Below, one piece after another: positions 1 to 62,217 of a stretch of 64,000 nt of DNA. Origin of the DNA: Biscogniauxia marginata (Eukaryota; Ascomycota; Sordariomycetes; Xylariales; Xylariaceae); contig MU404183.1 of assembly GCA_022695795.1 (NCBI GenBank), positions 35,210-99,209 on the forward strand. Direction: 5' to 3'. Both the position numbers and the translations under genes were made by a program. The notes under the pieces were generated by a model. It searched no databases. It was not told the DNA's origin and saw nothing but the letters and a program-made list of their open reading frames with translations. The number at the start of each line of letters is the position of its first letter. Position 1 is the first letter of the stretch.

Positions 1-252
1 ATACTAAGGAGAATAAGTATAAAAAGAATGGGATTTCTTATGTATTTAGTCTTTCATTCTCTAGCTATTAATTTAAAACTATAGTCACTCTTTAATATTA
101 TAGTGAGAATACTTTAAAACCTCTTTAATAAACATAACATTATAAATTAATTAAACTAATTTTAACTTATTATTACTTTTAAATTAAGAAAACCTAGTAC
201 ATACCCACCTATAAAATCAATTAACTAAAAAAACACAAGGAGGTTCGTTACA
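1..252 (+). repeat. Left LTR (partial) of retrotransposon copy 1
   Basis: This stretch aligns over its whole length with 7088-7339. It ends in the same GGAGGTTCGTTACA-type terminus seen at 49505 and, mutated, at 56553. The start of the LTR lies left of the window. Confidence 0.85.
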
Positions 253-6200: not shown

Positions 6201-7084
6201 AACTTGCGAATTTTTACCGATAAAACCCGAATCGGCTAGAAAAGCTTAAAAGTCAGAATCCTAACCTAAAAAAGACAGGTCGAAAAAGGGGACGGCCTCG
6301 AAAGCAAAAATGTTTAGCTCGGACTCGAACTAACGTATCAAGTCTTTCATTTATTGCCGTTCCGTAGCAAGACACTTTTACTCTACCTCCACGCGTTTTT
6401 ATTTCTTTAACTCTTTAATAAACAATAAACCCCGTTTTAACATCTCAAAGCCCCGCTTTTTTAAGAACTCCTTTTATTTACATATATAAATCATTCGTCC
6501 CGCTAACGCTTAAAATTCCTCCTCGGCACGACGACGCTTTATAACAAGCTTTTCCTATTCGCAAATAATATTAAACAGGTTAAATATCGCGGTACCGCTA
6601 TCGTCATAATAACTTCGAACCTTAGCGGTATAAATAAAACAAATTTTAAACTCTAAAACCATAAAACAAAAAAAGTTAATTTAAAAGTAATAAAAACAAA
6701 GAAACACCTTATAACCGATAAAATAAATAAACGAAATAATAATATCACAAGTTTCGCGTTAATTCTTATAAAACTTCGTAATAAACTTAAAAACTCTTAA
6801 TATACTAAAAATAATAAATAAAAAGAACTTATTAAAAGGGATTTTTAAGACAAAGATTTTAAAAGGAGAGAAATAATATTACGAATTAACTATATTAAAG
6901 GAATTTTTAATAAAGGTGTTAAAACACGAACTAAGAATGTAAATATAAAACGATCCTTTTTTAGAACATAATAAGACGTTACGTAATATAATCTAAATTA
7001 CTTTTAAATTATAGTAAATGAGATTTAAGTTAATCTTAAATCCAGATAAACTCCGCTTATACGACAATTAATATAAAGAGGGAA

Positions 7085-7339
7085 TATATACCAAGAAGAA
7101 TAAGTATAAAAAGGATAAGATTTCTCATATATCTAGTCTTTTATTCTCTAGCTATCAATCTAAAACTATAATCACTCTTTAATACTATAATAAAAGTACC
7201 TTAAAACCTCTCTAACGAACATAACATTATAAATCAATTAAACCAATCTTAACCCATTATTACCTTTAAATCAAGAAAACCTAGTACGTACCCACCTGTG
7301 AAGTCAGTTGACTAGGAAAACACAGGGAGGTTCGTCACA
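7085..7339 (+). repeat. Right LTR of retrotransposon copy 1
   Basis: It is a direct repeat of 1-252 with mostly C/T and G/A differences. It is less AT-shifted than the left LTR and keeps, for example, ACCCACCTGTGAAGTCAG. The exact start is unclear because the 5' LTR is cut by the window edge. A purine-rich stretch, AAAGAGGGAA, sits close to the presumed start. Confidence 0.75.
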
Positions 7340-9745
7340 TTCTTTTTATAATTTTTATAGTTTTTCTTTAATTTCGTTTTCTTTAAAACCCGTTTTAAGT
7401 AACTTATATATATTGTAAAGTACTAAAGTATAATATATATAACTTTTAATAATTACTTAGTTATTTTTTTTTGGAACTTAAGTAAAAATAATAGGTTTTT
7501 AAATAACATGGTTATTATGGGACGTTATTATAAATATATTTGTTTTTTTTCGTGTTATTACTTTTTAGTTTTTAAGGATAATAACTGGTTTTATTTTTAA
7601 AGTTTTAATATATTTAATAGGCGTCGTTAATATAAAAGCTTTAATATAGCGATATATATTCCTTTTATAATTCTATTATTTTATTTTTATTAAGGTGAAA
7701 TGTTTTATTCCTTAATTATTTAACCACTTTTAAATTTGGTTTCAGCTTTTTATTTAATAACTTATTAAGTTAATTAGCATTATTTAGGTTTTAGTAAATA
7801 TTATAATTATTATTTGTATAAAACTTTTAATGTAAGTTATTATATTTACTTTTTCTTTAATATATTTTATATTTATTATTATTATAATAGCTTTAATATA
7901 ATTTATTATAATTTAACTTAATTTTTAAGTCGTATTCTAGTTTATAAGTATTATATTTATATGGTAGTTCGCCTTTATTACATTTTTACCTGGCTTATTT
8001 TAACGTGAAATACTTTAAATATGAGTTATTATGTTTTAAATAGTTTTTAAGGTCGACTTAATAGCATTTATAGCTTTCGCATATTATAATAAATAAGTAA
8101 TAATACCTTAAGTAATATTTATAAGTTTTTTCTTTATAATTTTAACGAATATTATAACTTTTTTTATAAGGACTTCCTCGTTTTTTTTTATTTTAATAGT
8201 GGTAATAATAAATATTTGATTTATTTTTTTATTGTTTTTAAAAAGAACCTTTACTTTAAAGGTCTTTTTCTCGGGTTAAGAAATCCTTCTTGTTTTTGGT
8301 TTTTATTTCTTAAAATTTCGATACTTGTTTTTATAATGTCTTTTTTTATAGTTAAAACACTTAATAGTCGACTTATTTTGTTTTTTTGCTTTTTTTAAGT
8401 AATATTAATTTTAATAGGGTTTAATTTAATTTTAGTGCCTTTCCTTGTTTTAATACTACTTTTATGATTTCCTTTTTTCTATTAATCGCCGTTTCTTTGC
8501 TATATCGTTTTTTTTAAAGTATTATTCGAAGTTTTCGTTATTAATGATAATTGTTATTATAACGTAATTATTAAATTTCTTTAAGTTCCTTTTTTTATAT
8601 AAATTTATTTTATATAACTTATTTTTTATATAGTCTTTTAATCTTTAATAAAATAAATAATATATGCTTTTAATAAATAATTATAATTAATTTATAAGTT
8701 TTTTAAATTTGATAATATAATTTAAAGCTTTTTTATCTTATCGTAATTTATAAAGTCGAGCTTCGGTTTATTACTTAAGGATTAAGTTGCTAAATATAAA
8801 CCTAAGTTATTTTTTAAATTCTTTATAATCTTTAAAGACCTTTTTTATATCTTTTTAGGCGTTTAGTTTATTATTTAAGTGATTTTTTAACACCGGTTAA
8901 AACTAGGTTAAAGTAATTCTAACGAGGAGCTAAGATATTATAAAAACCCTTTATTTTTTAGTGGTAATTGTTCCGTAATAAAACCGTAAATAAGTTTCGG
9001 CTTAAATTAAAAATCCTTTTAAATTACTCGATTTATTATACTTACTAAGTATAATTAATTTAAAACCTTTTATATTAAAAGTTGTTATATTGTTTTCGTC
9101 GTTTAAGCTATTAAAGTCGCTATTATTTAAAAATGGCTTTAACTATTTATTTTTAAGAAATAAGGGTTATTTTACTTATTTTTAAGTGTTTTTTTCTTTT
9201 TCTTTTTTTCCTTTTTAAACGATTTTTCTTGTTAAGCTTTAAAGGTGTCTTTTTAGGGCTCTTTTTTAATTATAATTATAATTAACTTTTATATTAATTC
9301 TTTTAAACATTTTTATTATATCGTAAAAAAATCTAAAGTTTTTATTTAAAAGCTTATTAATTATGGGTTTTTTATTTATTTCTTTTTTATTACTTTTTAG
9401 TTTTAAGAGGTATATTTATTTTAAGACGGTTTAACCGAGAATCCCTTCTTTTAAACTAATATTAAGTATTAATTAAGGAGCTATTAAAATATAATAAACC
9501 TTTTTATATGTTTCTAGTTAATTAACTTTATAAGTAAATACGTATTAGGTTTTCTTAATTTAAAAATAATAATAAATCAAGGTTAATTTAAGAGATTTAT
9601 AATGCTTTATTCATTAAAAAGATTTTAAGGTATTTTTATTATAATATTAAAAAGTAATTATAATCTTAAATTAATAATTAAAAAACTTAAATAAATAACT
9701 AAATATATAAGAAATCTCTTTCTTTTTATATTTATTCCTTTTAAA
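7340..9745 (-). mobile_element. Inverted 5' fragment of the same chromovirus (LTR plus gag), RIP-degraded
   Basis: Read on the minus strand, this block matches copy 1 from about 252 to 2215. An LTR copy occupies about 9490-9745, followed by the primer-site region (AATAGCTCCTTAATTAA at about 9473-9487) and the gag region down to 7343. It abuts the right LTR of copy 1 head to head. The internal breakpoint falls in the AAGAATTATAAGAATTATA motif that is expanded into a tandem array in the copy at 51.4 kb. Every reading frame on the coding strand is broken. Confidence 0.8.
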
Positions 9746-9929
9746 GAGTAATATTTAATATTTTCTTTACTTCTTTATAAGTATTTAAAAGTTTTATAAA
9801 CACGTCGTTATTTTACCTTTAAAAGTGTATACAACTTCGACTTTAAGTGTTTATATGTGTTTAAAAGTTTTATAAACACGTTCTTAATTTCCGAAGATTA
9901 CTCGAAACTAGGGTAACTTAATATCCTTA
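9746..9929. repeat. AT-rich stretch with two diverged repeats of a 25-bp unit
   Basis: The unit GTRTTTAAAAGTTTTATAAACACGT occurs at about 9780-9806 and again at about 9856-9881. Around it is AT-rich sequence that I cannot assign to the neighbouring elements. Confidence 0.5.
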
Positions 9930-10851
9930 TTAGTTCGTAATAAATATTATAAAACGAAATATTTTTTAATTAAAATAATATATAATAATAAAAAATAATT
10001 AGTAATATTTATAATTTAAATAATTATAACTTATTTTTAATTATTTTATTAAACTTATTATAATTATTTACGTCGTTTTATATTTATTATTATTATATTA
10101 ATTTTAATAATTATTTTAATTATAAACTTTATTTTATTAAAATTACATATATTTTTTAAATATTATATTTCGTAATTATATTACGTATTAATTTATATTA
10201 TTTTCGATATATATTTAAGTTTTCGTAAAAAGCTTTTTAATAATCGATTTATTTATTTAAACGCGTTTAAAAAGGTTTTTATCGTTATATAAAATTAAAA
10301 ACTTAATTTTATTTAATGTGTCTCACGTCGCGATCGCGTAATAAAATATTTATTATCTCGGTAATATAATAAAAATAAAAATAAAATAATTAATTATATA
10401 AATATACTTTTAAATTATCGTCGTAATATAATATTAAAAACATTATAAATTTTTAATAATAAATAAAAACTAATATTTAAATAATAATATTTATAAGTAA
10501 TAATATAATTAATCTGAGTTTTAAATAATATTTTTAGTTATTAAATTAAATTAATTAATAAAAAAACTTTAAAAAATAAAAATAAAAATTATAATTATAA
10601 TTTTACGCGTTTTAAAAATAATAATAAGCATATTAATCCTTAATTAAATAATATAAATCACGTTTTAAAAAACTAAATATTTAATATAAAAAAGGTATTT
10701 AATTTTTAAAGTATAAAGCTAAATAAAATAATTCGAATAATAATAATTATTAATTAATTTCGATGCGACGTAAATGATTTTTAATAATTAAAAGTATAAT
10801 AACTATGAAATTTTATTTATAAGCTTGTTTTATTTACTTGTTTATATAATA

Positions 10852-10884
<33 letters not shown>

Positions 10885-11430
10885 ATTATATTAAATTATA
10901 TTTATATATATTTATTTTAAAAACTAATAATAAAGTATTATATAAACGAGGAAGTTATATAAATAAGTGGGTTATATAAGTAAATAATTCACTTAATATA
11001 TTATATAAAATCAAGTTTTTTAATAATTTTATAATTTTATATGTAAAAATCGGAAGAATCTCGAACCTTTTTTTAATTATATAATTACTTAAAATAATTA
11101 AATATAAAAAAATTAAAAATTAAATGCTTAATAAAAAAAGTTTATATGTTTTATTTTAATTTTAGTTTTTACGCGTTTTCCTTTCGCGTCTTTTAAAATT
11201 AATTTTTCCGATTTTACTTATAATAAAGTCTTATAACTATATAATTAAATAAAAAGGTCCGAGATTTTTACGATTTTTACGCGCAAAGTTATAAATTTTT
11301 GAAAACCCCGATTTTATATAGGAAATTAAATGGCTTACTCGCTTGTGTGGCTTACTCGCTTATAAGACACGTTAATAACTATAAAATTTCGTTTACAAGC
11401 TTATTTTATTTACTCGTTTATATAACACGT
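9930..11430. mobile_element. RIP-degraded DNA-transposon-like repeat, copy 1
   Basis: The body 9930-10860 is paralogous to 39580-40450 and to 57690-58480 plus 59100-59490, with shared landmarks such as TTTAAACGCGTTTAAAAAGG. The right end, near 11380-11430, carries CAAGCTTATTTTATTTACTCG followed by TATAACACGTTA, which recurs at 39540-39570 and 59455-59490. A separate fold-back element (10931-11374) is inserted near this end. No open frame or recognisable transposase remains. Class II identity is inferred from the inverted terminal motifs and structure. Confidence 0.6.
10931..11374. mobile_element. Fold-back / MITE-like element, copy A
   Basis: Long imperfect terminal inverted repeats flank a short AT-rich core. 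The left arm reads roughly TATATAAACGAGGAAG, and the right arm ends GGCTTACTCGCTTATAAGACACGTTA. Further in, a second inverted pair, AATCTCGAACC on the left and GGTCCGAGATTTTTACG on the right, brackets a centre with TTTTTACGCGTTTTC. The right terminus contains two direct 17-bp sub-repeats (AAGCGAGTAAGCCACAC when read on the minus strand). The element has no coding capacity. Confidence 0.65.
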
Positions 11431-32791: not shown

Positions 32792-34856
32792 ATGTCTACT
32801 GCGTCTCCCGACCGATTCGTACCTTTTTGTGTCTCAGTGCCGGATCGCTTCCGAGCCAACAAGCAACCCCACGAGCTGTCGCCCTCCGAACGCTTACTAC
32901 GTACCGATGAGGCCGGATCTAACGCATTCTGCTTCGCACCCAAGCGCGCGGTCCCGATGGCCGCCCGGCGCGTGTCTCGGTCTGACGGGACGGAGCGTCG
33001 ACTTGGTACGGTGCTTGACTTGCACTCCTTGGAGAGGCGGGTTAGCAATGGCGCCGTTTGGTCTGTCGGCGGACTAGCACCTGGTGATGGTGTAAGCGGA
33101 TCAGCTGTAGATGGTGGAGGTGGTCGGCTTGTCAGCTCCGGAACCAATGCTCGCCTCTACACGACTTCATTTTCGAACTCTCGACCTAAGTCTGAGGAAG
33201 AGCAAGAGAAACATGAAGGTAGGCTCGCATTAGCTTTGAAGATCGACCGAGTTCAGCGCGTACTTGACTTCGACGGCTTTTCTACATTTCCGCGCTGCAG
33301 GAGCAAAGGAAGGCCACTGTTGAAGACCAGCAAAACCACATGGACCGGGACCGAATGGAGCAACGATCATCACGTTTTCAGTAAGTCGTCGTTGTGGCGA
33401 CTGTTTCCTATTGACTAACACGCTCCAGAAGTTCAAAAAGAGGCCCGGATTCTACCTAACGCCCCGTTCAAGTAGGTGTTAGTACCATGACAAGGAAGCC
33501 GAGGGTTGCTTACTTGTCATCAGGGTTCTGGATGCTCCGGGTCTCCGGGATGACTTTTACTGCTCGATGATGGCTTACTCGAAGACCTGCAACACTTTGG
33601 CTGTTGGCCTCGGCAACCTTCTATACGGGTGGTCGGAGTCGTCGGGCGTCACCCTTCTTAATGCTGGGATCAAGGACGGATCGTGGTTGACTTCGGTAGC
33701 ATTCTCGTCGAACCAGGGATGCAAGTCCATCTTAGCTTTCGGTCGATCAAACGGCTCTCTCTCCCTGATGTCTCTATTCGACAGTCTCCTTCCTCGGTTT
33801 GAAGCTCAACAGCCAGCACCGGTCGCCTGTCTCTCATGGCGCCCCACTGTCACTCTCCGGCCGTCACTGAACAGTCGCAATCACGGTATGCTGGTCAAGA
33901 CTGAGGACCTTCTCGTAGGCGACGAGATGGGAGACATCTACTACTACTCGGTCGAGTGGCCCGAGCCCTAGGAAGTGGCTCGGGATAATTGGTCTGGGGT
34001 CATGACCTTGCTTGCGCGCATCAAGGTTCATTCGCAGCAAATATGCGGCCTCGCGTGGTCACTTAATGGGTTACAATTTGCGACAGGTGGCAACGACAAT
34101 TTGTGTTGTCTCTTCAACGTTGACAAGGTCGTTGACCCGGAACCTTTCACAGACACTACAGGAATGCAATCGAAGAGTTCTAGTGCAGAACGTGATTCAT
34201 CCTGTCCCGTAAATTCTGGCGACGGCGCATCGTCCTCGTTTCCAGAAGACTCGGAAGATCATCCAAGCACCAGAACCAACGCCAGACATCTGCCAGGAGG
34301 TTCAGAGAGACACCGGTGGCGTCACGCAGCTGCTGTCAAAGCCATAGCCTTCTGTCCATGGCGCGAAGGACTCATCGCGACTGGCGGCGGTTCTAATGAC
34401 AAGTGCATCCATTTTTATCACACTACCTCTGGGGCTGCCCTCGCCACTATCGCGGTCTCGGCGCAGGTCACCTCTCTCATTTGGAGTACAACGCGCCGAG
34501 AGATCGTGGCGACGTTTGGATACGCACAACCGGACCATCCGTATCGGATCGCCATCTTTAGTTGGCCCGACTGCCGCCAAATAGCCGCCATACCCTAGGA
34601 GGGCGAGCACCGCGCCCTATACGCCATCGCGTACCCCGGTGGCCCGAGCGACACGTATCGTACTAAGCAGAGGCTGAGGAGCCGCACAGCCGAGGAAGGC
34701 TGCATCGTCGTGGCTGGCAGCGACGAGAGCGTCAAATTCCATGAGGTCTGGATGGCAGGGCGCAAGGCAACGACACTTGGAAGCGGCATTCTAGCCGGAA
34801 GCGACATCCTAGAGATGGGGGAAGGCATAGATAAAGAGGGAGACGTGATTCGCTAA
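32792..34856 (+). CDS. AMA1: AMA1-type meiosis-specific APC/C activator (WD40), interrupted by two in-frame TAG codons
   Basis: Exons are 32792-33380, 33429-33471 and 33524-34856 (introns 48 and 52 nt, phase kept), giving 655 codons. The N-terminus has a C-box-like DRFVPF. Then come the family segments ELSPSERLLR, KHEGRLALAL-KIDRVQ and a WD40 propeller (APFKVLDAPGLRDDFYCS, SWLTSVAFSSNQG, QQICGLAWS, HAAAVKAIAFCPWREG, TSLIWSTTRREI). The protein ends GDVIR, the Ile-Arg tail that docks activators on the APC/C. Codon 360 (33969-33971) and codon 569 (34596-34598) are TAG where the family has Trp (WPES-WE and AIPWEGEH contexts). No frameshift or other stop occurs, and sequence after both stops stays conserved. 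It is either recoded by A-to-I editing in the sexual stage or a recently hit pseudogene. Confidence 0.85.
33960..33984 (+). promoter_or_regulatory. Hairpin presenting the first AMA1 TAG in its loop (candidate A-to-I editing site)
   Basis: CCCGAGCC at 33960-33967 is perfectly complementary to GGCTCGGG at 33977-33984. The 9-nt loop CTAGGAAGT contains the stop codon, with the candidate edited A at 33970. A U before the A and a location in a short stem-loop match the preferences described for fungal A-to-I editing. Function is inferred. Confidence 0.5.
34593..34603 (+). promoter_or_regulatory. Small hairpin around the second AMA1 TAG
   Basis: CCC (34593-34595) can pair with GGG (34601-34603), leaving TAGGA in the loop with the candidate A at 34597. 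The stem is only 3 bp, so the structure is weak. An alternative outer pairing, CGCC with GGCG, encloses the same site. Confidence 0.3.
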
Positions 34857-46667: not shown

Positions 46668-48082
46668 ATGAGTTTTGAGAAGGTAAAGGAGACTATTGCT
46701 GGCGACGATGTTGTGCAGCTAAACACACCACCAGCGTTGAAAAACGCCGTTTCGAGCTCAGATTCTGCAGAAAGGTCCAAATCTTCAGGGGGCATGGCTA
46801 GCTCGGGCATGTTTAACGACAACGAAGCTGACTCTGTATCTTCTGAGAGTTCCACGTCTGAGGACAAGGTTCCGCGACGGCGGCGAGTGTGGCGGCATTG
46901 TGCGAGGTTTTGGATATGGTATTTAATCGGTGTCATCGCATTCCTAGCTATATTTATTCCATTACTGTAAGTCTTGGGATCGACACATAACTCACGCAAT
47001 TAAAACAAAACTACAGTGAGTTCGCTAACAGTTTGACTAGGTTCCTCAAGATCATCCCCGCCATCGCTCAGGATATAGTCAACAAGGCCGACCTCCCGGT
47101 CTACGGCGGATCGCTAAGGGCCGTTTCCCACGACAGTTTGAGAATTGGGTTACAAACTTCCTTGAGCATCCCTACAGGACTTCATGTCCGGCTTGACCCC
47201 ACGGAACTTTGGCTCTACAATACAGAGAGTCAAAACTTTAATCCCTATACGATGGTTCCTCTCGGGGGACAGGATGTTAGCGGCACAACATATATAAATG
47301 TCGAAGACGACGCGAGCATTCTTAATCTTACAGAGATCGAAAGATTCCTGCAGAAGTTCTTGGTTTCGGAATCAATCGACCTTAGTTTCAAGGGTAACAC
47401 AACGGCACACCTCGGTGCTATAAAATCCCACATCGACTTGGAGAAATCACTGCAAATACCGGGCCTCAGGAACTTCACGGGTCTGGCGATAAATGGCGCC
47501 AGTTTTGTCTTGCCCCCAGAGGCAGACGGCTCAAATCTGGTTGGAAACTTGACACTTCCTAACTGGTCGAACCTGGAACTCGGATTAGGAAATATCACCT
47601 TCAACATCTGGACTGGCGAAATTCTCGTCGCTAAGGCCTCTGTTCTCGAAGTTCTACTTCAACCTGGCAACAATACGTGGCCTTTCAGAGGCGAGGTATT
47701 CCTTGACACCATAGTCTCGAACTTTGTGGAAGTCTTGAGGAGCCAATCCAGTATCTTGAGCAGCGGCAAAATTGCTCTCGGAATTACTGGAAATGAGACA
47801 ACGATCAACGGGCAGCATATAACTTATGTGGAAGATGTACTAAACTACATCAAGCTGGACTCAGAACTTCCACTAATGCAGCTTCTCACGGATATTCTCG
47901 GTAGCGTATTGAATGAAAACACAAGCCTGGATGGCCTAGAGGGTCTGCTTAGCAACTCCAGCGGTAGCAGTAATTCAACGGGCGATAATCCACTTGCGGA
48001 CTTAGTGGGTGGTCTAAACATCACTGGTTCCGTCGCAACGATTCTGCAAAAAGCAGCTCAACAATTGAACTTCAAAACTTAA
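46668..48082 (+). CDS. DUF3712 membrane protein (2 exons, 454 aa)
   Basis: Exons are 46668-46966 and 47017-48082 with a 50-nt intron that falls directly after the membrane segment. Residues 1-78 are acidic and Ser-rich, followed by a basic stretch (PRRRRVWRHC) and one transmembrane helix at about 81-100 (WYLIGVIAFLAIFIPLL). The C-terminal portion, lumenal or extracellular by the positive-inside rule, has repeated DUF3712 features: FLKIIPAIAQDIVNKADLPV, LQTSLSIPTGLHVRLDP and NFTGLAINGASFVLPPE. It carries many N-glycosylation sequons (NLT, NTT, NFT, NWS, NIT). DUF3712 proteins are fungal single-pass membrane proteins without known function. The end is a plain stop with no anchor signal. Confidence 0.85.
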
Positions 48083-48760
48083 CGCTTATAGTCGGGGTTG
48101 AGGGCGCTCGGCATGAGTTCTTAATTTAGTACCTATGTAATGTTACGATATAGTAACATGCGTGAAATACCTAATAGTATTGTGAATAGTTAAAGCCATT
48201 ACTTAGCATAACAGCTTGTTCCCGTGTAGTAATTGAACAGCCATAGTCCGTGAAGATGCGCATGAGTGGCCGGCTAAGTTAGTAGTTGGGAACCTCCTAT
48301 AGCTTGAATCCTTGTATACCAATATTTCTGCCTCTTCGTTGGCATGGATAATAGAATATACCAGCTATGTAGCACGTCCACAACTATATAAGAAGATCGT
48401 TGTGTGATACTTGAAACAAGGGGGATAGGAGGGTTAAGAGAAAATATGCATTATATGTTATTTGCCTTTCATAACCACTCGGACGGCTTCGTAACCTTGG
48501 TTGTATATTATATATTTTATCGACATTTAGTTATAATCGCCACTTTAAGTTTAAAATACTAGTTAAATTAAAGTAATTGTGGCTTTTTTATATTATTAAA
48601 AAATAAAAGACATAATCCTTTATTATTATTAATTTATAAAGTTATAATATTTAAATATATTTAAATACAATTATTTTTAAAGAAAATTAAAGTTTATTTA
48701 ACCTTTTAATAAGTTTATTAATAATTAATAATTTAAAATTAAGTTTAATTATTAAATATT
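48083..48760. other. Intergenic region passing into AT-rich repeat DNA
   Basis: Balanced composition continues to about 48490. From about 48680 the sequence is homologous to 11440-11510 (AATTTAAARTTAAGT), the flank of fold-back copy A. No gene is seen. Confidence 0.5.
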
Positions 48761-49112
48761 TTATATTTAATATATTATATAAAATCAAGTTTTTAAAAAA
48801 AATTATAACTTTACACGTAAAAGTCGCAAAAATCTCGGACCTTTTTTTTAGTTATATAATTATAAGTTTTAATTAAAAGTAAAATCAAAAAAAATAAAAG
48901 TGAAATATATAAAGAAATACGTAAAAAGGTTTATACGTTTTATTTTAATTTTAGTTTTTACGCGTTTTCTTTTCGCGTCTTTTAAAATTGTTTTTTATTT
49001 TACTTTTAATTAAACCTTATAATTATATAATTAAAAAAAAAGGTTCGAGATTTTTACGATTTTTACGCGTAAAGTTATAAATTTTTGAAAAAGCCGATTT
49101 TATATGGGAAAT
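48761..49112. mobile_element. Fold-back / MITE-like element, copy C, left part (split by LTR element)
   Basis: Two arms pair: TTATATAAAATCAAG through AATCTCGGACC (48777-48842) against GGTTCGAGATTTTTACG through GATTTTATAT (49042-49105). The element is cut at 49112 by the LTR retrotransposon and resumes at 56559-56606 with AAGTGGCTTATTCGC and an end of AAGACACGTTA. Rejoining the halves gives the sequence found uninterrupted in copy A at 11330-11374. Confidence 0.75.
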
Positions 49113-49505
49113 TATTACAACCCTGTCAGGTCAGGTGATTCAGGTCACGTGACCTGGGGTCAGCGATCTCGCGATCTCGCCGAGATCGCGAGATCAGTAA
49201 AGATCTCGCTATTTTTGCGAGATCACCGTATCTAAAGGAAGAACCTTAAATAGTAAGAAGAAATATAAAAAAAATAAGATTTCTTTTATATTTAGTTATT
49301 TATTCTAGTTCCTTAGTTATTAATTTAAGATTATAATTACTTTTTAATATTATAATGAGAGTACCTTGAAATCTCTTTAATAAACAAAGCATTATAAACC
49401 TTTTAAATTAATTTTAATTTATTATTACTTTTAAATTAAGAAAACCTAGTACGTATTTACTTATAAAGTTAATTAACTAAGAAAATAAAAGGGAGGTTCG
49501 TTACA
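49113..49505 (+). repeat. 5' LTR of copy 2 (393 bp)
   Basis: It begins TATTACAACCC (ancestral TGTTACAACCC, first G mutated to A) and ends GGTTCGTTACA. It contains a GC-rich palindromic stretch, CGATCTCGCGATCTCG and CGAGATCGCGAGATC, that RIP has largely spared. Confidence 0.9.
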
Positions 49506-51364
49506 TTTTAATAGCTCTTTAATTAATATTTAATATTAATTTAAAAGAAGGGACTCTTAATTGAACCGTCTTAAAATAAGCATGCTCCTTAAAACTAAAG
49601 AATAATAAGAAAAGAAATAAGTAAAAAAACAATAATTAATAAGCTCTTAAACGAAAGCTTTAAATTCTTTTACGGTATAATAAAAAGGTTCAAAAAAACC
49701 AATATAAAAGTCAATTATAGTTATAACTAAAAAAGAGCCTTAAAAAACACCTTTAAAGCTTAATAAGAAAGATCATTTAAGGAAGAAAAAGAAAAGGAGG
49801 AAAAAACACCTAAAAAAGAAAATAAATAACCAAAACTACCTTTAAACGATAATAACCTTAATAGCTTAAACGACGAAAATAACATAATAATTCTCGATAT
49901 AAAAGGTTTTAAATTAATTATACTTAATAAGTATAATAAGACAAATAATTTAAAAGGATTTTTAATTTAAGCCGGAACTTACTTACGATTTTATTACGGA
50001 ATAATTACTATTAAAGAATAAAAGATTTTCACGGTATTTTAACCTAGTTTTAATTAATATTAAAAAATTACTTAAATAATAAATTAAACGCTTAAAAAAT
50101 ATAAAGAAAGTCTTTAAAGATTATAAGGAGTTTAAAAAACAACTTAAATCTATATTTAACAATTTAATTTTTAAGTAATAAACCGAAGCTTAATTTTATA
50201 AATTATAACAAAATAAAAAGGCTTTAAACTATGTTATTAAATTTAAAAAACTCGCAAGCTAATCACGACTACTTATTAAAAGCTTATACTATTTATTTTA
50301 TTAAAGACTAAAGAATTATATAAAACAAACTTATATAAAGAAAGAAACCTAAAAAAGTTTAATAATTACGTTATAATAACAATTACTATTAATAATAAAA
50401 ACTTTAAACGGTACTTTAAAAAGAAAAAAACGATATATCGAAGGAACGGCGATTAGTAGAAAAAAGGAAATTATAAAAGTGGTGCCGAAACAAGGAAAGG
50501 CACTAAAACTAAGTTAAATCCTATTAAAATCAACGCTACTTAAAAAGAGCAAAAAAAACAAAACAAATTAACTATTAAGTGTTTTAATTATAAAAAAAAA
50601 TATTATAAAAACAAATATTAAAGCCCTAAAAAATAAAAACCAAAAATAAGAGGGATTTTTTAACCCGAGAAAAGAACCTCCAAAATAAAGGTTTATTTTG
50701 AAAACAATAAAGAAATAAACCAAGTATTTATTATTATTATTATTAAGGTAGAAAAAAACTATAAATATTATTAAGTTGACCATAAAAATTATTTAAAGTA
50801 CAACCATTTATACTTAAAATACCTTACATTAAAACAAGTTAAATAAGGATATAACGAAAACGAACTACTATATAAGTATAATACTTATAAACTAAGATAC
50901 GACTTAGAAATTAAGTTAAACTATAATAAGCTATATTAAAGCCATTATAACGATAATAAATATAAAACATATTAAAGAAAAAGTAAATATAATAACTTAA
51001 ACCGGAAGTTTTACATAAATAATATTAAGTAAAAAACTTAAAATAGAACTAAAAATAGAAAAATAACCGGAAAAGGAACATACATCGTTATATTGGAGCT
51101 TTTATATTAACGACGCTTATTAAATATATAAAAATTTTAAGGATAAAGCCGGCTATTATCTTTAAAAACTAGAAAGTAATAATATGAAAAAAAATAAGTG
51201 TATTTGCGATAACGTCTTATAATGGCTATATTATTTTAAAGCATATTATTTTCATTTAAGTTCCGAAAGAAATAACGAAATAATTACTAAGAGTTATATA
51301 TGTTACATTTTAATATTATGCAATATACACGATTTACTCGAAGCGAGTTTCAAAGAAAACGAAG

Positions 51365-51600
51365 TTAAAAAAGAATTATAAGAATTATAAAAAAGAATTA
51401 TAAGAATTATAAAAAAGAATTATAAGAATTATAAAAAAGAATTATAAGAATTATAAAAAAGAATTATAAGAATTATAAAAAATNNNNNNNNNNNNNNNNN
51501 NNNNNNNNNNNNNNNNNNNNNNNNNNNNNNNNNNNNNNNNNNNNNNNNNNNNNNNNNNNNNNNNNNNNNNNNNNNNNNNAAAGAATTATAAGAATTATAT
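51365..51600. repeat. Tandem array of about 22 bp (AAGAATTATAAGAATTATAAA) with assembly gap
   Basis: Repeated units lie on both sides of a run of 96 N (51484-51579), so the array was not resolved in the assembly. Copy 1 has a single unit at the same internal position (about 2190-2215). Confidence 0.9.
51484..51579. other. Assembly gap (96 N)
   Basis: The run of N interrupts the tandem array inside retrotransposon copy 2. Its true length is unknown, so the stated element length is approximate. Confidence 0.99.
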
Positions 51601-54600
51601 TAACTCGAAAAACGAGCTAAATACAATATAAGTCTATTTAAATTCGTAAAAAAGCACTTAATAAAATAAGAAATAAAAATATATATAATTAAACTAAGCT
51701 ATAAATAAATCGTTAAAGCATATTTTTTAAAAAAAAAGGAGAATTTTTAAAAATCTATATAAATTTATAAAGAGATATTAAGTTACCCCTAGTAAATAAA
51801 TCCGAGGATTATACCTTTTATTCGAAAATAATTTAAAATCTCAAAAAATTTCGAATTAATCAAAAAATAAACTTAAACTATAAAAAGGCCCTCGAAAAAG
51901 AATTAAAGTTTCAATATATAAGGTTTTATATAAAGAATAAACCTTTTATCTTTTACTACTTAAAAAGTAATTAGAAAAACTATTTAAATAATAATTATTA
52001 GAAACACGCTCTTATAAAAGCTTAAAAATGAAAAAACATTTAAGTTATAATTACTTAAAGAAACTTAAAAGAGAAGGGACATGAACTAAAAAACGATAAA
52101 GGCTCTCGTTAATAAAGTAACGAGAAGCCATAAATAACAAATCCTTATATAAAATCTAATTAAGACTCGATAATACCATTATAATTAAAGTTAAGTATAA
52201 TAAAAAGGAGTATTAAGCCCTTATAAACTTAAAAGTAAATAGAAATTATATCTTAATTAAGATAACTTAAAAGGATAATATATTATAAGTATATAAATAA
52301 AGTATTAAGAGAAACGGTCTTTTCTCGGTAATTATCTAAGAATATCCCGAGTAAGTCATTTTTAACATTATATATATATTAAATTACAATATAATTTTAA
52401 AAATGAATTAACTTAAAAGAAGTAATTCATAAATAAATTTCGAGATAAATACGCTTTATTAAGATTAAGATTAAAAAGAGTTAATTATTACGAGTTATAA
52501 AATAAGTACCGTAAGTAACACTAAAAACATAAATATAAAGACGAAATATATCGCTTATATAATTTAAGTAACTAAGTTTAAAGATTTAACGAAAAAAATA
52601 TTACGTAAATACCTCCGTTTCTATAAATTATTTAAAAATAAAACAAAAAAAGAATTATTAAAATATAATTAATAGGATTACTAGATTTGCTTTAAAAAAA
52701 GAAAACAGCCAAAACTATTCTTAATTTATCTTATAAATTAAGAAAAATAAAAAGCATTATAAAAAGGAATCTAGAAGGATCTTAATAAAGGATATATTCG
52801 AAAATTAAAGTTCTTATTAAGATACCCGGTAATAATAATATCGAAGGTTAATAAAAACGAAAAATAACATGTCGATAAAGAAGGAAATTTAGTATAACGA
52901 CGAGTAATTAATTACCGACACTTTAATAAAGTAATAAAAAAGAATAAATATTTATTAATATTAATGAAACTTATAAAAAAACAAATTAATAAAGCTTAAA
53001 TTTTTATAACATTAAATCTTCGCGATAATTATTATATAATTAAAATAATTAAAAAACATAAATAGTATATAACTTTCTAAACGGTATATAAATATTATAA
53101 GTATAAAGTTATGCTATTTAGATTTATTAACACACCCGTTACATTTTAACATATAATTATAATAATCCTTCGCAAATTTCTAAATAAATTTGTATTCGTT
53201 TATTTAAACGATATACTAATTTACTTAAAAAACGAGAAGAAGTATAAGGAATATATAAAACAAGTGTTAAAAGCCCTAGAAAAAGTAAACCTACTTATTT
53301 ATTTAATTAAAAGTAAATAACATGTTAAAAAACTAAATTATTTAAGGTTTATAATAAGTTTAAGAGAAATCCGTATTTAAAAACGAAAAATAATAATAAT
53401 TAAGGATTAATTAAAACCTAAAAGTGTTATAAATATACGCATATTTCTTGGCTTTATTAATTACGTTAAATAACTCATTTAAAATTTCGGGCGAATCGTT
53501 AAACTATTAACGAAATTAACTATTTTAATAAAAACAAAAAAAGCTTTCCATTTTATTAAAAAAGCTAAATAGGCTTTTTAGCAATTAAAGAAAGTTATAA
53601 TTAACAAGGTTATATATAAACTTTTAAACGAAAATAAAAAGAAACAACTAAGGATAAATACTTTAGATTTCGCCATCGAAGTAGTTCTAAAATAATAAAA
53701 AAACAATAAAAAATAGTACCTAGTCGCGTACTTATTTAAGGCATTATATAATGTTAAACTAAACTATTAATAATCATTAAAACATTAAAGGAATAAAAAT
53801 TATAACTTAGTAAAACTAAGGAACTTATTAATATTTATTTAAATCATAAAAACCTTATATAATTCATAATAATATAAACACTTAATTAAAGATATAAGCG
53901 TTAAATAATTTTCCTATTTAAGTTTAATTTTAAAATTTATTATATTAAAGGAAAGGAAAATATTTAAGTAGATCTTCTCAGTAGAAAGGGAGATTATAAA
54001 TCAAAAATCAATAAAAGAAATATCTAGATATTTAAATAACAAAATAACGGATTAATTATATTAGCTTATATGCGAATCAGCATAAGAAAATAGAAATAAC
54101 GCTTTAAGGAAAGTTATAATTAAAAAGAAAAGTAATTATAGTTTTAATAAGGATTTAATAATAAACTTTTATTATATAAAGAAAAGGTTTATATATTAAA
54201 ATAAGTATAAAATAAATTTATTAAGGAATTTTATAAACACCTTTTATATGGTTACTAAGGAGTCTTCAAGACATTAAAACGATTATAAGAAAAGTTCGAC
54301 TTTTTAAGAATAAAATAAACTGTTAAAAGAGTTATAAAGAATTATAACGTTTATAATAAAGCTAAAACGTCATAATATAAACCATATAAATTATTATAAC
54401 TAATTTAAATACCTAATAAAGCGTGACACATGATTATATGGGATTTTATAATGAAACTTCCTAAATTAAAAGATCTTACTATAAAAGTACCTTATAACAA
54501 CATATAAGTAATCGTTAATAAACTTACAAAATATGCTTATTTCTTATTATTTAACGAGTTAAGCATAGTAAAATAACTAGTTTTTAGTTTCTTAAAAAAG

Positions 54601-56160
54601 TATATTAATAAATATAAATTATTAAAACGTATTATTTTAAATAGAGACAAGTTATTTACATTAAAATTTTGGATTAACTTAATAAAACGAATAAGAATTA
54701 AATAAAAGCTATTTATAACATATTATCCTTAAATAGACGAATAAACGGAAAAACTAAACTAAATAATAAAATAATATTTACGAAGTTATATTAACTAGGA
54801 AATAAATAACTAAATAGAACTACTATTAATAGCTTAAATAGCGTATAATATTTTAATTAATAAGGATATAAAGATATTACTACACGAAGCAGTGTATAAA
54901 CAAAAAGCAGAAATTTAAAAATAATAAATCGAACTCACGAAAGTATTAAGAGTTAAAACAAAAACCCTAAAAGCAAAAATATTATCCGAAAAAGTCTAGA
55001 CAATATAGCTATAATTATAAAAAGAATTATAATTTATTTAAAACTAAATAACTAAATATTATAATTAAAAAAGAATTAAAAGACTAATTTTTAAGAAAAG
55101 AAACAAAGTATATTTACTATGATAATAACAAAATGTATTAATAAAAACTCCGTAAATTAAAATAAAACGACTAAATAAGAAACTTGACTTTAAGAAATTA
55201 AAACCTTACGAGATTAAAAAAGTTATCTCGAGTATTAATTACAAATTGAAATTATTAAAGGAATCTAGAATATATTTAATATTCTATATATTACTATTAA
55301 AACTAATATTAAAGAACGCCTCGTTAGAAACCTAAAACGAGATTAAGTAAAAACTAAATAAATATAAAGTAAAAAAGGTTTTAAACTTAAAAAGAGTTAA
55401 AAATTAATTATAATATCTAGTTAAATAAGAAAGTTACTTATTAAAAGAAAACACTTAAAAACCACTTAAATATTTAAAAAACTAAATAAATAAACTTATA
55501 AGGTTTTACCGCTAAAATCTAGACTAGTTAAGAAGGCTAAAGAATCAAAATCTTGATTTAACTAAAATTAATTGAAAAAAAAGAGGGCGACCTTAAAAGT
55601 AAAATTAACTTATACCACTTTTAAATACTTTTACCCTTCCTTTTTACGCTTAATACGCTTTAATTCCTTCAAATTATTAATCCCTCTAAAAATAACCTTT
55701 ATTATTTTGTTATATTATAACTTTTTTTTATTTTTAAACACGATAAATTTTTGTGTTTACCGATATATACTTCTTTTTTTAACTTCTTTAACTCGTTTTT
55801 AAACTTCTTATATTAAATAGCGACACAATCGAGTTACTTAAAAGTAAGACTTTAAACGTCATAAAACGCTTAATTATTTTTAATACAAGAAAAATAATAA
55901 GAAGAGTTTATTTTAAATAGCTGACAAGGAAGTTTTCGACGCTCGTAATAATAATATAAAGCTATTCTAATAAGGGATTAAAGTATTACTAAAAAAAAAA
56001 AGCTTTTTAAGTAGTACTTTTATAGAGAATTATTTAATTATTTTACGTATTTAATTAAACATAATCAAAATGAATAAAGAAAAGAAAGACTTATTTACTC
56101 ATTAAAGAAAAATCGAAAAAGTGGTATTTAAAGATAAAAACCTTAAGAGGGGAAAAATAG

Positions 56161-56553
56161 TGTTATAACCCTATTAAGTTAAGTGATTTAAGTCACGTGA
56201 CCTGGGGTTAGCGATCTCGCGATCTCGGCGAAATCGCGAGATTAATAAAGATTTCGTTGTTTTTACGAGATTACCATATTTAAAGGAAAAACCCTAAATA
56301 ATAAAAAGAAATATAAAAAGAATAAGATTTTTTTTATATCTAGTTATTTATTTTAGTTTTTTAGTTATTAATTTAAAACTATAATTACTTTTTAATATTA
56401 TAATAAAAATACCTTGAAATCTCTTTAATAAATAAAGCATTATAAACCTTTTAAATTAATTTTAATTTATTATTACTTTTAAATTAAGAAAATCTAGTAT
56501 GTACTTACTTGTGAAGTCAACTAACTAGGAAGATAAAAGGGAGGTTCGTTATA
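56161..56553 (+). repeat. 3' LTR of copy 2 (393 bp)
   Basis: It begins TGTTATAACCC and ends GGTTCGTTATA. It aligns without length difference to 49113-49505, and nearly all differences are C/T or G/A. The CACGTGACCTGGGG segment is retained in both. Confidence 0.92.
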
Positions 56554-57768
56554 GAAATTAAGTGGCTTATTCGCTTGTATGACCCACTTGCTTATAAGAC
56601 ACGTTATATCAAAATTAATTAATAATTATTATTATTCGAACCGTTTTATTTAGCTTTATACTTTAAAAAACGAATACCTTTTTTATATTAAATATTTAAT
56701 TTCTTAAAACGTAATTTAAATTAACTAGTTTATTATATTTTCCAAGTTAAAATCCTTTAAAATTAAAATAAAAAATTAATAATAAATACAATTAATTATA
56801 ATTCTTTAAAATTTAAATTATTAAATATCTTTTTATTTATTATATAAATACGTATATTATAATTAATTTAATTATATATATTATATCGTTTTTATTTAAT
56901 TATTACTTTTTTCGAGGTTTTCTTTTTTTATTATTCATAATAATATTTTTTAATTTATAAAATTATTTCTTTTTTTATATTAAACAATTCTTTTATTTAT
57001 AATTATTTATTTTTCGTTTTATATTACTTATTAAAAATATAATTTATCTCTTAAAAACGAATAATCTTTTTAAATTAATTATATATATTTATAATGTTTA
57101 TAAAATACTTTTTAATACTTTTTAATTTTATTTATAATATAATTAAATTATAAAAATACTTTATAAATTATTATAAATTTTTTAATTTTTTAAAATACTT
57201 ATATTATATCGAGATTTAAAAAAGTATATATATTATTTATATAAATATAAATAATATAATAATAACTTTTTTAAATTAAAAAAACTAATTTAATTATATG
57301 AAATTTAATTTATATATTCGAAATAATTATTATAATAATAATAACTTTTATAAACTTAATTAAAAAGTCTTTTTTATAATATAAATATAATAACGATTTA
57401 TTAAACTTTATAAGTAATTATTATATATTTATTTTAAAATATTAAAATATATAAAGTTAAAAAATTAAAATTTATATAATAAATAATTAAATATATAAAA
57501 TATAACGATATTTCTTTTTAATAATCTTTAAAGTTAATAAAATAATAACTATTATAATTATTTAAAATTAAAAAACGTATAGTTTTTATTCTCTTTTTTA
57601 TATATTTATAAAAATGCTTTATAAAGTTTATATTAAACTTATTTATAGTTTAATTATTATTTAATATTATAATTTTACTTTTTAATAATAATAAGTTATT
57701 ATAATATTATAAAGCGAGATATTCTTTTTAATTAAAATAATATATAATAATAAAATATAATTAATAAT

Positions 57769-57942
57769 TAATACGTAAGCATATAAAATGTATATAAATA
57801 ATAATAAATTATGTAAAAAAAAGGGAGGAGCCTTATAAGTTAAAGGCTTGTAAGCTTCATTTTATAAACCTTTATCTCCTTTATTTAAACTATTTAAAAC
57901 TAAGGCTTATAAGGTCTTTTAGATTTTTATAACCCCGTATTA
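57769..57942. mobile_element. 174-bp insertion with 7-bp terminal inverted repeats
   Basis: The segment starts TAATACG and ends CGTATTA, and is absent from the paralogous repeat at about 9998. It carries an internal purine run (AAAAAAAGGGAGGAG) and is less AT-rich than its host. It is probably a small non-autonomous element. Confidence 0.4.
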
Positions 57943-58483
57943 ATAATATTTATAATTTAAATAATTATAACTTATTTTTAATTATTTTATTAAGTTTTTT
58001 ATAATTATTTACGTTATTTTATATTTATTATTATTATATTAATTTTAATAATTATTTTAATTATAAACTTTATTTCGTTAAAATTATATATATTTTTCTT
58101 TTAAATATTATATTTCGTAATTATATTATATATTAATTTATATTATTTTTAATATATATTTAAGTTTATATAAAAAGTTTTTTAATAATTTATTTATTTA
58201 TTTAAACGCGTTTAAAAAGGTTTTTATTATTATATAAAATTAAAAACTTAATTTTATTTAACATGTTTCGCATCGTAGTTACGTAATAAGATATTTATTA
58301 TTTCTATAATATAATAAAAACAAAAAAAAATAATTATTTATTTAAGTTAATAATATATTAAATAATTATAACCTTTTTATAAAATATAAATTTTCAGAAA
58401 TTTAATATAATAATTAATTATATAAATATACCTTTAAATCGTTATTATAATATAATATTAAAAATATCGTAAATTTTTAATAA

Positions 58484-58910
58484 TTAACGTGTTTTATATA
58501 CGAGTAAGCCATTTAATTTCTTATATAAAATTGACTTTTTCAAAAATTTATAACTTTATATATAAAAATCATAAAAGTTTTAAACCTTTTTTATTAGTTA
58601 TATAATTAAAGATTTTTATTAAAATTAAAATTAAAAAAATGAATTTTAAAAAACGTGAAAAGAAAATACGTAAAAACTAAAATTAAAATAAAATATATAA
58701 ACCTTTTTACGTATTTCTTTATATATTTTATTTTTTAATTTTTTTAATTTTACTTTTAATTAAACCTTATAATTATATAACTAAAAAAAAAGTTCGAAAC
58801 TTTTATGCTTTTTATATGTAAAGTTATAAATTTTTGAAAAAGTCGATTTTATATAAAAAATTAAGTGGTTTACTCGCTTATGTGGCTTACTTGTTTATAA
58901 AACATGTTAA
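58484..58910. mobile_element. Fold-back / MITE-like element, copy D
   Basis: It begins TTAACGTGTTTTATA and ends TATAAAACATGTTAA, so the outermost 15 bp are an almost perfect inverted repeat. The inverted arms extend more than 100 bp inwards through AAGCCATTTAATTT and the AAAATTGACTTTTTCAAAAAT / GAAAAAGTCGATTTTATAT pair. It interrupts a repeat that is continuous at 10440-10480. It has no coding potential. Confidence 0.7.
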
Positions 58911-58911
58911 T

Positions 58912-59097
58912 TGATGGTTACGTGACTAACTTACAAAGGGTCATTACTCCGCGGTGCATGTATATAAGGATCATCTCATCCCACATTTATCAAGTCTGAT
59001 AGTTACCTCCTCAGACATTAATATTACACTAGTCTCGCTCTTACCTTTTATATTGTTACTTGTTCTTTACTTCTATATATATATGTACCTACCAACA
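58912..59097. mobile_element. Unmutated solo LTR (186 bp) with TTAAT target duplication
   Basis: The segment starts TGATGGTTACGTGAC and ends CTACCAACA (TG...CA). It is flanked on both sides by TTAAT (58907-58911 and 59098-59102). It contains TATATAAGGATCATC, as in an LTR promoter. Unlike everything around it, it has a normal base composition, so it inserted after the host repeat was mutated, or escaped RIP by being short or single. No similar sequence occurs elsewhere in the window. Confidence 0.65.
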
Positions 59098-59817: not shown

Positions 59818-62217
59818 ATGGAGGCTCTCAAACAGACATTCAAGCGCTGCAAGGCCGAGCATCGGGTATGACTTGGTTCTCTTTCAATTCTCCTTCGCCT
59901 CAGTCGTGGTTGGTGTTGTCTTGTCCTCTTCTGACGTGAAACACCCCTCCCGCCACGACGGTTGCTTCATTGCAATTGCGCAACGAGACTGATACAGCTA
60001 TAGGCTGCCTTGGTGACCTACGTTACCGCGGGTTTCCCGAAGCCCGAGGACACACCAGACGTCATGCTGGGAATGCAAAAGGGCGGCGCGGGTACGTTGT
60101 TCCGTTGTCAACCAGCATGGGACGAGTCGCAGCTGACCGACGAGGCTAGACGTGATCGAGCTCGGTGTACCCTTCACAGATCCTATCGCAGACGGCCCGA
60201 CAATCCAGACCTCCAACACAGTCGCCCTCGCCAATGGCGTCACCATCCAGTCCACTCTGCAAATGGTCAAGGATGCGCGGTCGAGAGGGTTGACTACCCC
60301 GGTCCTGTTGATGGGATACTATAACCCCCTACTTAGCTACGGCGAGGAGGCGCTGCTGCGAGACTGCAAATCCGCCAGCGTCAACGGCTTCATCGTTTGC
60401 GACCTCCCTCCCGAGGAGGCTGTGTCCTTCCGGAAGCTCTGCAGCAAGGGTGCCTTGTCGTATGTCCCTCTGATTGCCCCTGCGACATCCGATGCCCGCA
60501 TGAAGATCCTGTGCACCCTCGCCGACTCCTTCATATACGTCGTCTCGCGCCAGGGCGTGACTGGCGCTCTTGGGACTCTTAATGCCAACCTACCGAGTCT
60601 CCTGCAACGTGTCAAAAAGTATAGCGGCGACAAGCCTGCCGCCGTAGGCTTCGGCGTGTCGACACGGGAGCACTTCCAATCCGTCGCTGCTATTGCCGAT
60701 GGTGTCGTCATTGGTTCGCACATCGTGACCACTCTGCAGAACGCCGATCCGGGTAAGCTTGCACAGTCCGTCCAGGAGTATTGTGCCTACGTCACCGGGC
60801 GGACTACAGATACGGTACGGGAGACCACGCGGGAAGTTGGTGTTATAGAAGCTATCAACGGCGCCAAGGAGCCTAGTGGCGACGATGTGACAGTCAATGG
60901 GATCATAACAGAACAGGAGGATGCCGCATTGGTTGCACAGCTGGCAGCGCTCCACGGCAAGATCCCCGAGAGGTTTGGCGAATTTGGTGGGCAGTACGTG
61001 CCAGAGTCCTTGATGGACTGCTTGTCCGAGCTGGAAGAGGGCTTCAACGCCATCAAGGACGACCCCAAGTTCTGGGAGGAATACCGCTCATATTACCCTT
61101 GGATGGGACGGCCGGGCCAGCTCCACCTGGCTGAGCGTCTGACCGAGTACGCCGGAGGTGCAAATATCTGGTTAAAGAGAGAGGACCTGAACCACACGGG
61201 TTCCCACAAGATCAACAATGCCGTGGGGCAAATCCTGCTAGCAAAGAGACTAGGCAAAACTAAGATCATCGCTGAGACCGGCGCCGGCCAACATGGTGTA
61301 GCCACCGCTACGGTCTGTGCCAAGTTTGGCATGGGATGCACCGTCTTCATGGGTGCCGTGAGTACTTACCATGCTCTTTTTCTTGTTTGACGATGACTGA
61401 CAGTGCATCACAGGAAGATGTTCGGCGACAAGCTCTTAACGTATTTCGGATGCGTCTGCTGGGCGCCAAGGTCATCGCGGTTGAAGCTGGAAGTAGGACG
61501 CTTCGAGATGCCGTCAACGAGGCATTGCGCTACTGGGTTGTCCATCTTGAAGATACCCACTACATCCTTGGCTCCGCCATTGGCCCCCACCCCTTCCCGA
61601 CGATTGTCCGAACTTTCCAGTCCGTCATCGGCAACGAGACGAAAGCTCAATTGCAGGAGAAGCGTGGTAAGCTCCCCGACGCTGTCGTAGCTTGCGTGGG
61701 TGGTGGAAGCAACGCAGTCGGCATGTTTTATCCATTCTCCAAGGACCCTAGCGTCAAGCTGTTGGGCGTTGAGGCAGGCGGTGACGGTATCGACACTCCT
61801 CGCCATTCGGCAACTTTAGCAGCCGGCACCAAGGGCGTTCTTCACGGTGTAAGAACTTACATTCTGCAGAACGAGCACGGTCAGATTTCGGACACGCACT
61901 CTGTCTCGGCCGGGTTGGATTATCCGGGCGTGGGCCCCGAGCTTTCCTCCTGGAAAGATAGTCAAAGGGCGAAGTTCATTGCCGCGACTGATGCAGAAGC
62001 GTTTCTCGGTTTCAAGCTTATGTCCCAGCTCGAGGGTATTATTCCTGCTCTTGAGTCTGCGCATGGTATCTACGGTGCTATCGAGCTGGCCAAGACAATG
62101 AAGGATGACGAGGACGTGGTCATCTGTCTGAGCGGCAGAGGCGACAAGGACGTACAGAGTGTAGCGGATGAGCTGCCTAAGTTGGGACCTAAGATCGGGT
62201 GGGATTTGCGTTTCTAG
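59818..62217 (+). CDS. trp-3: Bifunctional tryptophan synthase (alpha-beta fusion, 4 exons, 715 aa)
   Basis: It catalyses the last step of tryptophan synthesis: the alpha domain cleaves indole-glycerol phosphate, and the beta domain joins indole to serine with pyridoxal phosphate. Exons are 59818-59865, 60004-60091, 60150-61357 and 61414-62217, all in phase. The alpha domain (about 1-265) has [19 protein letters not shown] with catalytic Glu49 and Asp60. A linker of about 55 residues leads to the beta domain (from about 325, [14 protein letters not shown]), with the cofactor lysine Lys399 in TGSHKINNA, the phosphate loop GGGSNA and the [11 protein letters not shown] segment. The end, [15 protein letters not shown], is typical. 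Length matches fungal homologues, and the gene is intact. It starts about 330 bp from the repeat block. Confidence 0.96.

Follow-up and report, generated by a model that had tools for sequence, protein, structure and literature searches.

An AMA1 gene with three exons and two introns lies near the middle of the 64,000-nucleotide stretch of Biscogniauxia marginata DNA analysed here (the window). The introns were placed by hand, guided by homology and GT-AG splice signals. After splicing, the CDS measures 1965 nt and comprises 655 codons including the final TAA (654 before it), and it is interrupted by in-frame TAGs at codon 360, in the surroundings CCC-TAG-GAA, and at codon 569, in the surroundings CCC-TAG-GAG. 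Before the final TAA it contains these two TAGs, no TAA or TGA, and no frameshift, and the translation ends in GDVIR. An in-frame UAG thus interrupts an otherwise intact conserved ORF, as in a gene subject to premature stop correction (PSC). The preliminary description had proposed a 655-codon frame with TAGs at these codons and in these contexts, no frameshift, and an Ile-Arg C-terminus; the spliced CDS agreed on each point, and the coordinates were exact. Elsewhere in the window, positions 1-11000 and 48000-59000 have a GC content of about 0.1-0.3 and dinucleotide ratios like those left by repeat-induced point mutation (RIP), and they flank gene islands.

Table 1 Features of the AMA1 gene in the window, with the two candidate editing sites.
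Feature	Positions	Strand	Remarks
AMA1 exon 1	32792..33380	+	starts with ATG; C-box-like DRFVPF at residues 7-12
AMA1 intron 1	33381..33428	+	GTAAGT..CTAAC..CAG
AMA1 exon 2	33429..33471	+	
AMA1 intron 2	33472..33523	+	GTAGGT..CAG; strict CTRAY branch site not found
AMA1 exon 3	33524..34856	+	WD40 domain, Ile-Arg tail, TAA at 34854-34856
Premature TAG, codon 360 (site 1)	33969..33971	+	candidate edited A, 33970
Premature TAG, codon 569 (site 2)	34596..34598	+	candidate edited A, 34597
Ile-Arg C-terminal codons	34848..34853	+	
Site 1 hairpin	33960..33984	+	8-bp stem, CCCGAGCC/GGCTCGGG
Site 2 possible small hairpin	34593..34603	+	CCC-TAGGA-GGG, read from sequence

When both stops were replaced with X, the AMA1 translation scored 204.4 bits with Pfam PF24807 (CDC20/Fizzy WD40), whose cut-off is 200. 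The genome search for the Cdc20 family recovered the gene as two matched pieces that jointly scored 206.4, each containing one TAG and no other stop. The top matches among PDB sequences were Slp1, Cdh1 (Fizzy-related), and Cdc20. Across all 229 contigs of the genome (45.3 Mb), only three genes passed the Cdc20-family cut-off, namely AMA1, a Cdh1-like gene (C108), and a Cdc20-like gene (C38); the latter two are stop-free within the WD40 match. A 31-base exact-match search found the AMA1 sequence in one copy. The gene combines the CDC20/Fizzy WD40 domain with the Ile-Arg tail and is distinct from the co-resident Cdc20 and Cdh1. APC/C activators carry in their N-terminus a C-box with the consensus DR[YF]IPxR, and the AMA1 N-terminus, DRFVPFC, is near this consensus with the final Arg missing. 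Judged from its sequence, the window gene is the single AMA1 orthologue, a meiotic APC/C activator of the CDC20/Fizzy type.

The preliminary description had placed both TAGs at tryptophans of the family. In the alignment with the paralogues of the same genome, codon 360 corresponds to Trp in Cdh1, adjoining a 13-residue gap, and to Lys in Cdc20. Codon 569 corresponds to Gly and Ala, with no Trp, in Cdh1/Cdc20. Pattern matches in other contigs added little: none of the four in viral contigs was confirmed, and one of the 20 in genome contigs encoded a relative, a CDC20-like WD40 stretch too distant to help. It lies on a contig (L052, JAJFMB010000134.1) from a MAG that bears the label Chlamydiae, possibly a eukaryotic contamination.

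The nucleotides around the two stops were compared with the editing preference described for Fusarium graminearum in passages of PMC9600606: C or U at -2, U at -1, A or G at +1, G at +2, and A or G at +3 and +4. We counted the preferred nucleotides at these six positions, from -2 to +4, as a context score. Both AMA1 TAGs scored 6/6, and their A's were the sole 6/6 sites among the 425 scored A's of the AMA1 CDS, which include 62 in UA and 17 in UAG in any frame. The full score was reached at none of the 14 TGG codons of AMA1, at 5 of its 97 codons that are one base from TAG, and at 14 of 405 TGG codons elsewhere (62 other long ORFs in the window and fetched loci). From the squares of 14/405 and 5/97, the chance that random nonsense hits would give two 6/6 contexts is roughly 0.001-0.003. 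As controls, we scored 22 TAGs at 16 other loci, which were 16 of the 24 non-AMA1 TAG-bearing matches (2 of 5 Cdc20-family, 8 of 11 kinase, and 6 of 8 Ras-type matches). None reached 6/6; the two TAGs of PUK1, included among them, scored 5 and 3.

RNA folding was less informative. In the minimum free energy (MFE) structure at site 1, two more inner pairs are formed, which leaves a 4-nt loop with the candidate A still in it. The 61-nt fold at this site had a z of -2.61, and one of 200 shuffles folded as well; the probability that the A lies in a hairpin loop was 0.995 with 30-nt flanks and 0.33 with 50-nt flanks. For the A of site 2, this probability was 0.93-1.0 with 10-20-nt flanks, 0.245 with 30-nt flanks, and 0.82 with 50-nt flanks. 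With 30-nt flanks, 33 of the 62 UA sites scored as high as site 2, and 138 of 200 shuffles folded as well as its 61-nt sequence (z 0.61). Since MFE hairpin loops hold 29 of the 62 UA sites of AMA1, structure discriminates little, and we rejected the hairpin as proof of editing because such loops are too common. The predicted hairpins give weak support to site 1 and next to none to site 2.

The preliminary description had left open whether editing of AMA1 orthologues was already reported, and it is for F. graminearum. FgAMA1 (FGRRES_10728), the stated orthologue of yeast AMA1, has a premature UAG, and its full-length product requires A-to-I editing, according to passages of PMC4817773, PMC9499528, and PMC11156358. 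Part of PMC4817773 lists AMA1 alongside SPO22 among the meiosis genes of this species that undergo editing. The window gene, with its two UAGs at codons 360 and 569, resembles FgAMA1 in being an AMA1 orthologue that carries a premature stop of this kind. AMA1 editing itself is therefore already in print, and the window gene adds a further candidate case. Neither two AMA1 sites nor this genome is described in the portions of the literature searched, whose scope did not extend to the main FgAMA1 and Neurospora crassa editing papers.

Among other genes, the kinase domain of F. graminearum PUK1 has a tandem UAGUAG that becomes UGGUGG, and N. crassa NCU03242 has the first of these UAGs and F. verticillioides the second, as given in part of PMC4817773. 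In the present genome, an NDR-type kinase (L037; G000:C11:440000-443600, minus strand) contains TAGTAG between ARCD and SLGV. With X at both positions, the tandem TAGs fall exactly on the Trp-Trp pair that STK38 and CBK1 have in the alignment. Its further stops, TAA and TGA, lie inside an intron-like stretch (GTAAG...CTGAC...TAG). This kinase is the apparent PUK1 orthologue, as inferred from the stop pattern and the Trp-Trp alignment. The mechanism proposed for AMA1 is the same as that of PUK1 and NCU03242. On the other hand, PUK1 is a different gene in which the two sites are adjacent, whereas those of the window AMA1 are 209 codons apart. Another kinase-like locus (L036; G000:C30:389415-390011) is interrupted within the match by three in-frame TAGs and by no other stop codon. 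Of these TAGs, one stands beside a Trp, between DDW and VQI, and the editing contexts are poor (2, 4, and 4 of 6).

AMD1, FgRID, and SPO22 are F. graminearum PSC genes in which UAG is changed to UGG in perithecia (parts of PMC4817773 and PMC11156358), the same correction as proposed for the window AMA1. The SPO22 locus of this genome (L023) has an in-frame TAG at 3405-3407, between LKS and DDLAGIV, with a context score of 5/6. This TAG falls outside the region matched by Pfam, which is stop-free. The A of the TAG is the third nucleotide in the 7-nt loop of a hairpin whose stem is 6 bp long. The loop resembles an anticodon loop. Of the F. graminearum PSC genes looked for, those with a TAG here are AMA1, PUK1, and SPO22; none was seen in the RID-like, DCP1, and RhoGAP genes examined, and these and the Ras-type genes lend the editing explanation no support. 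RID, edited in F. graminearum, was sought among five DNA-methylase matches, none of which had an internal stop. Unlike FgRID, two RID-like genes, both candidates for RID, were free of in-frame TAGs in their main frame. DCP1, also edited in F. graminearum, gave a single genome match without TAG. For RhoGAP, another type edited in that species, none of 11 matches had a TAG, and one had four TGA. Ras-type genes are likewise of a type edited there; 8 of 61 matches carried TAG, and in all six that were read the TAG looked intronic.

The editing enzyme is described in part of PMC11087585 as Tad2-Tad3 with Ame1, a DUF726 protein; according to the same source, its KN-to-MV change in Sordariomycetes was a critical step. 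DUF726 gave four matches at three loci in this genome (C101, C118, and C10). The aligned stretch reads GMVRAEKAG in C101, ARNRSEKAG in C118, and SQDRAWSAG in C10, so that C101 has Met-Val where its paralogue C118 has Arg-Asn. Relative to the Ser, the Met-Val of C101 stands at -30/-29, one residue off the published -31/-30. The published residues of Ame1 are D589 and H629 with S531 (part of PMC11087585), and C101 has Asp and His at Ser+58 and Ser+98, which is the published spacing. The deaminase matches comprised a Tad2-like sequence (HAE...PCVMC) and a Tad3-like sequence (HAA...PCIMC) without the catalytic Glu. By sequence motif only, Tad2-like and Tad3-like deaminases and an Ame1 of the Met-Val type were found in the genome, and C101, which has the Met-Val pair associated with mRNA editing, looks like a candidate Ame1. 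Together with the state of PUK1, that of Ame1 points to a filamentous ascomycete of the Sordariomycetes.

RIP-like AT-rich blocks occupy much of the window (67 of 125 2-kb windows by the thresholds applied, mainly at 1-11 kb and 48-59 kb), so that the genome has probably been subject to RIP. AMA1 could accordingly be a recently dead or dying pseudogene in which RIP, or leakage of RIP from nearby repeats, turned TGG into TAG, which is a RIP-type change. The stop type does not speak on this question: the RIP stop opportunities remaining in the AMA1 CDS are 20 TAG, 9 TAA, and 0 TGA, and since RIP would mostly make TAG here, the TAG-only pattern is no argument against it. The 1-kb bin 33001-34000 is nominally over the RIP thresholds, at a borderline 0.90 / 0.96. 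However, exon 3, which bears both TAGs, is not RIP-like (TpA/ApT 0.647; (CpA+TpG)/(ApC+GpT) 1.118), and the corresponding ratios for the whole CDS are 0.70 and 1.057. The single exact copy and the small number of Cdc20-family genes also argue against RIP, which moreover would not pick two optimal editing contexts when so few TGG codons elsewhere qualify. We rejected a RIP origin of the TAGs, as the CDS and exon 3 ratios do not fit it, and consider the pseudogene explanation improbable. A-to-I recoding is favoured over RIP because the nucleotide context and the dinucleotide ratios separate the two.

The TAGs could instead be 3' splice sites (YTAG) that are removed with introns, as gene predictors often model. 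CCCTAG is acceptor-like at both positions, the sequence before codon 360 has two donor-like GTs (57 and 86 nt upstream of the codon's end), and many of the in-frame TAGs read in the genome's other genes resemble intron ends by eye. However, no CTRAY branch motif occurs within 50 nt upstream of either AMA1 TAG, compared with 14 of 20 control TAGs that have one upstream (15 other loci, the two TAGs of PUK1 left out), with the caveat that the true intron 2 of AMA1 likewise has no strict CTRAY. No donor-like site GTRNG[TCA] was found 40-250 nt upstream of codon 569, and splicing at codon 360 would remove the segment DLLVGDEMGDIYYYSVEWPEP, which lines up with one of the paralogues' blades. Splicing-out was rejected on the absence of the branch motif at both TAGs and of a donor at the second, and we give it very little probability. 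Decoding of UAG by translational readthrough or a suppressor tRNA, with no RNA editing, would also account for a frame that reads on past the TAGs. The agreement of both sites with the editing context at all six positions, together with the editing of the AMA1 orthologue, PUK1, and SPO22 published for F. graminearum (part of PMC4817773), makes this the least plausible explanation, with hardly any probability left to it.

A-to-I recoding of AMA1, as put forward in the preliminary description, gains support from the nucleotide context, the single copy, the non-RIP character of exon 3, and the signs of PUK1, SPO22, and Ame1. We therefore think it very likely that this single AMA1 orthologue has both UAGs converted to UGG by sexual-stage Tad2-Tad3-Ame1 editing and yields full-length protein only then, the editing and its timing being deduced from sequence. 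During sexual development, Tad2-Tad3-Ame1 would turn the A in both UAGs into inosine, so that each codon would be read as UGG (Trp). The edited mRNA would give a 654-residue protein with the complete WD40 domain and the Ile-Arg tail, in sexual development only. Any transcript made in other tissues would yield a truncated product of 359 residues.

As the two UAGs are separate, full length requires that both be edited in one mRNA. AMA1 might thus work as a two-step switch that is active only if both UAGs, 209 codons apart, are edited; we regard this extension as unlikely. Under such a switch, mRNA edited at the first site alone would give a product that ends at 568 residues, short of the final WD40 stretch and of the Ile-Arg tail, and this product could hold substrates without activating APC/C. 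If true, the switch could make meiosis, or the formation of ascospores, more sharply timed.

Sexual-stage stop-codon correction is known so far from a few model fungi. The presence of putatively correctable UAGs in AMA1, PUK1, and SPO22 suggests that editing-conditional meiotic genes are maintained beyond Fusarium, and AMA1 in this genome offers a clear two-site test case for stop correction. Automated annotation may label such an AMA1 as broken or invent introns in it.

Downstream of AMA1 in the window, the ORFs at 60152-61387 and 61336-62217 (plus strand) encode a tryptophan synthase whose alpha-chain and PALP domains share a single frame. Near 61360 the gene seems to pass into a second frame, with a probable intron between the two.
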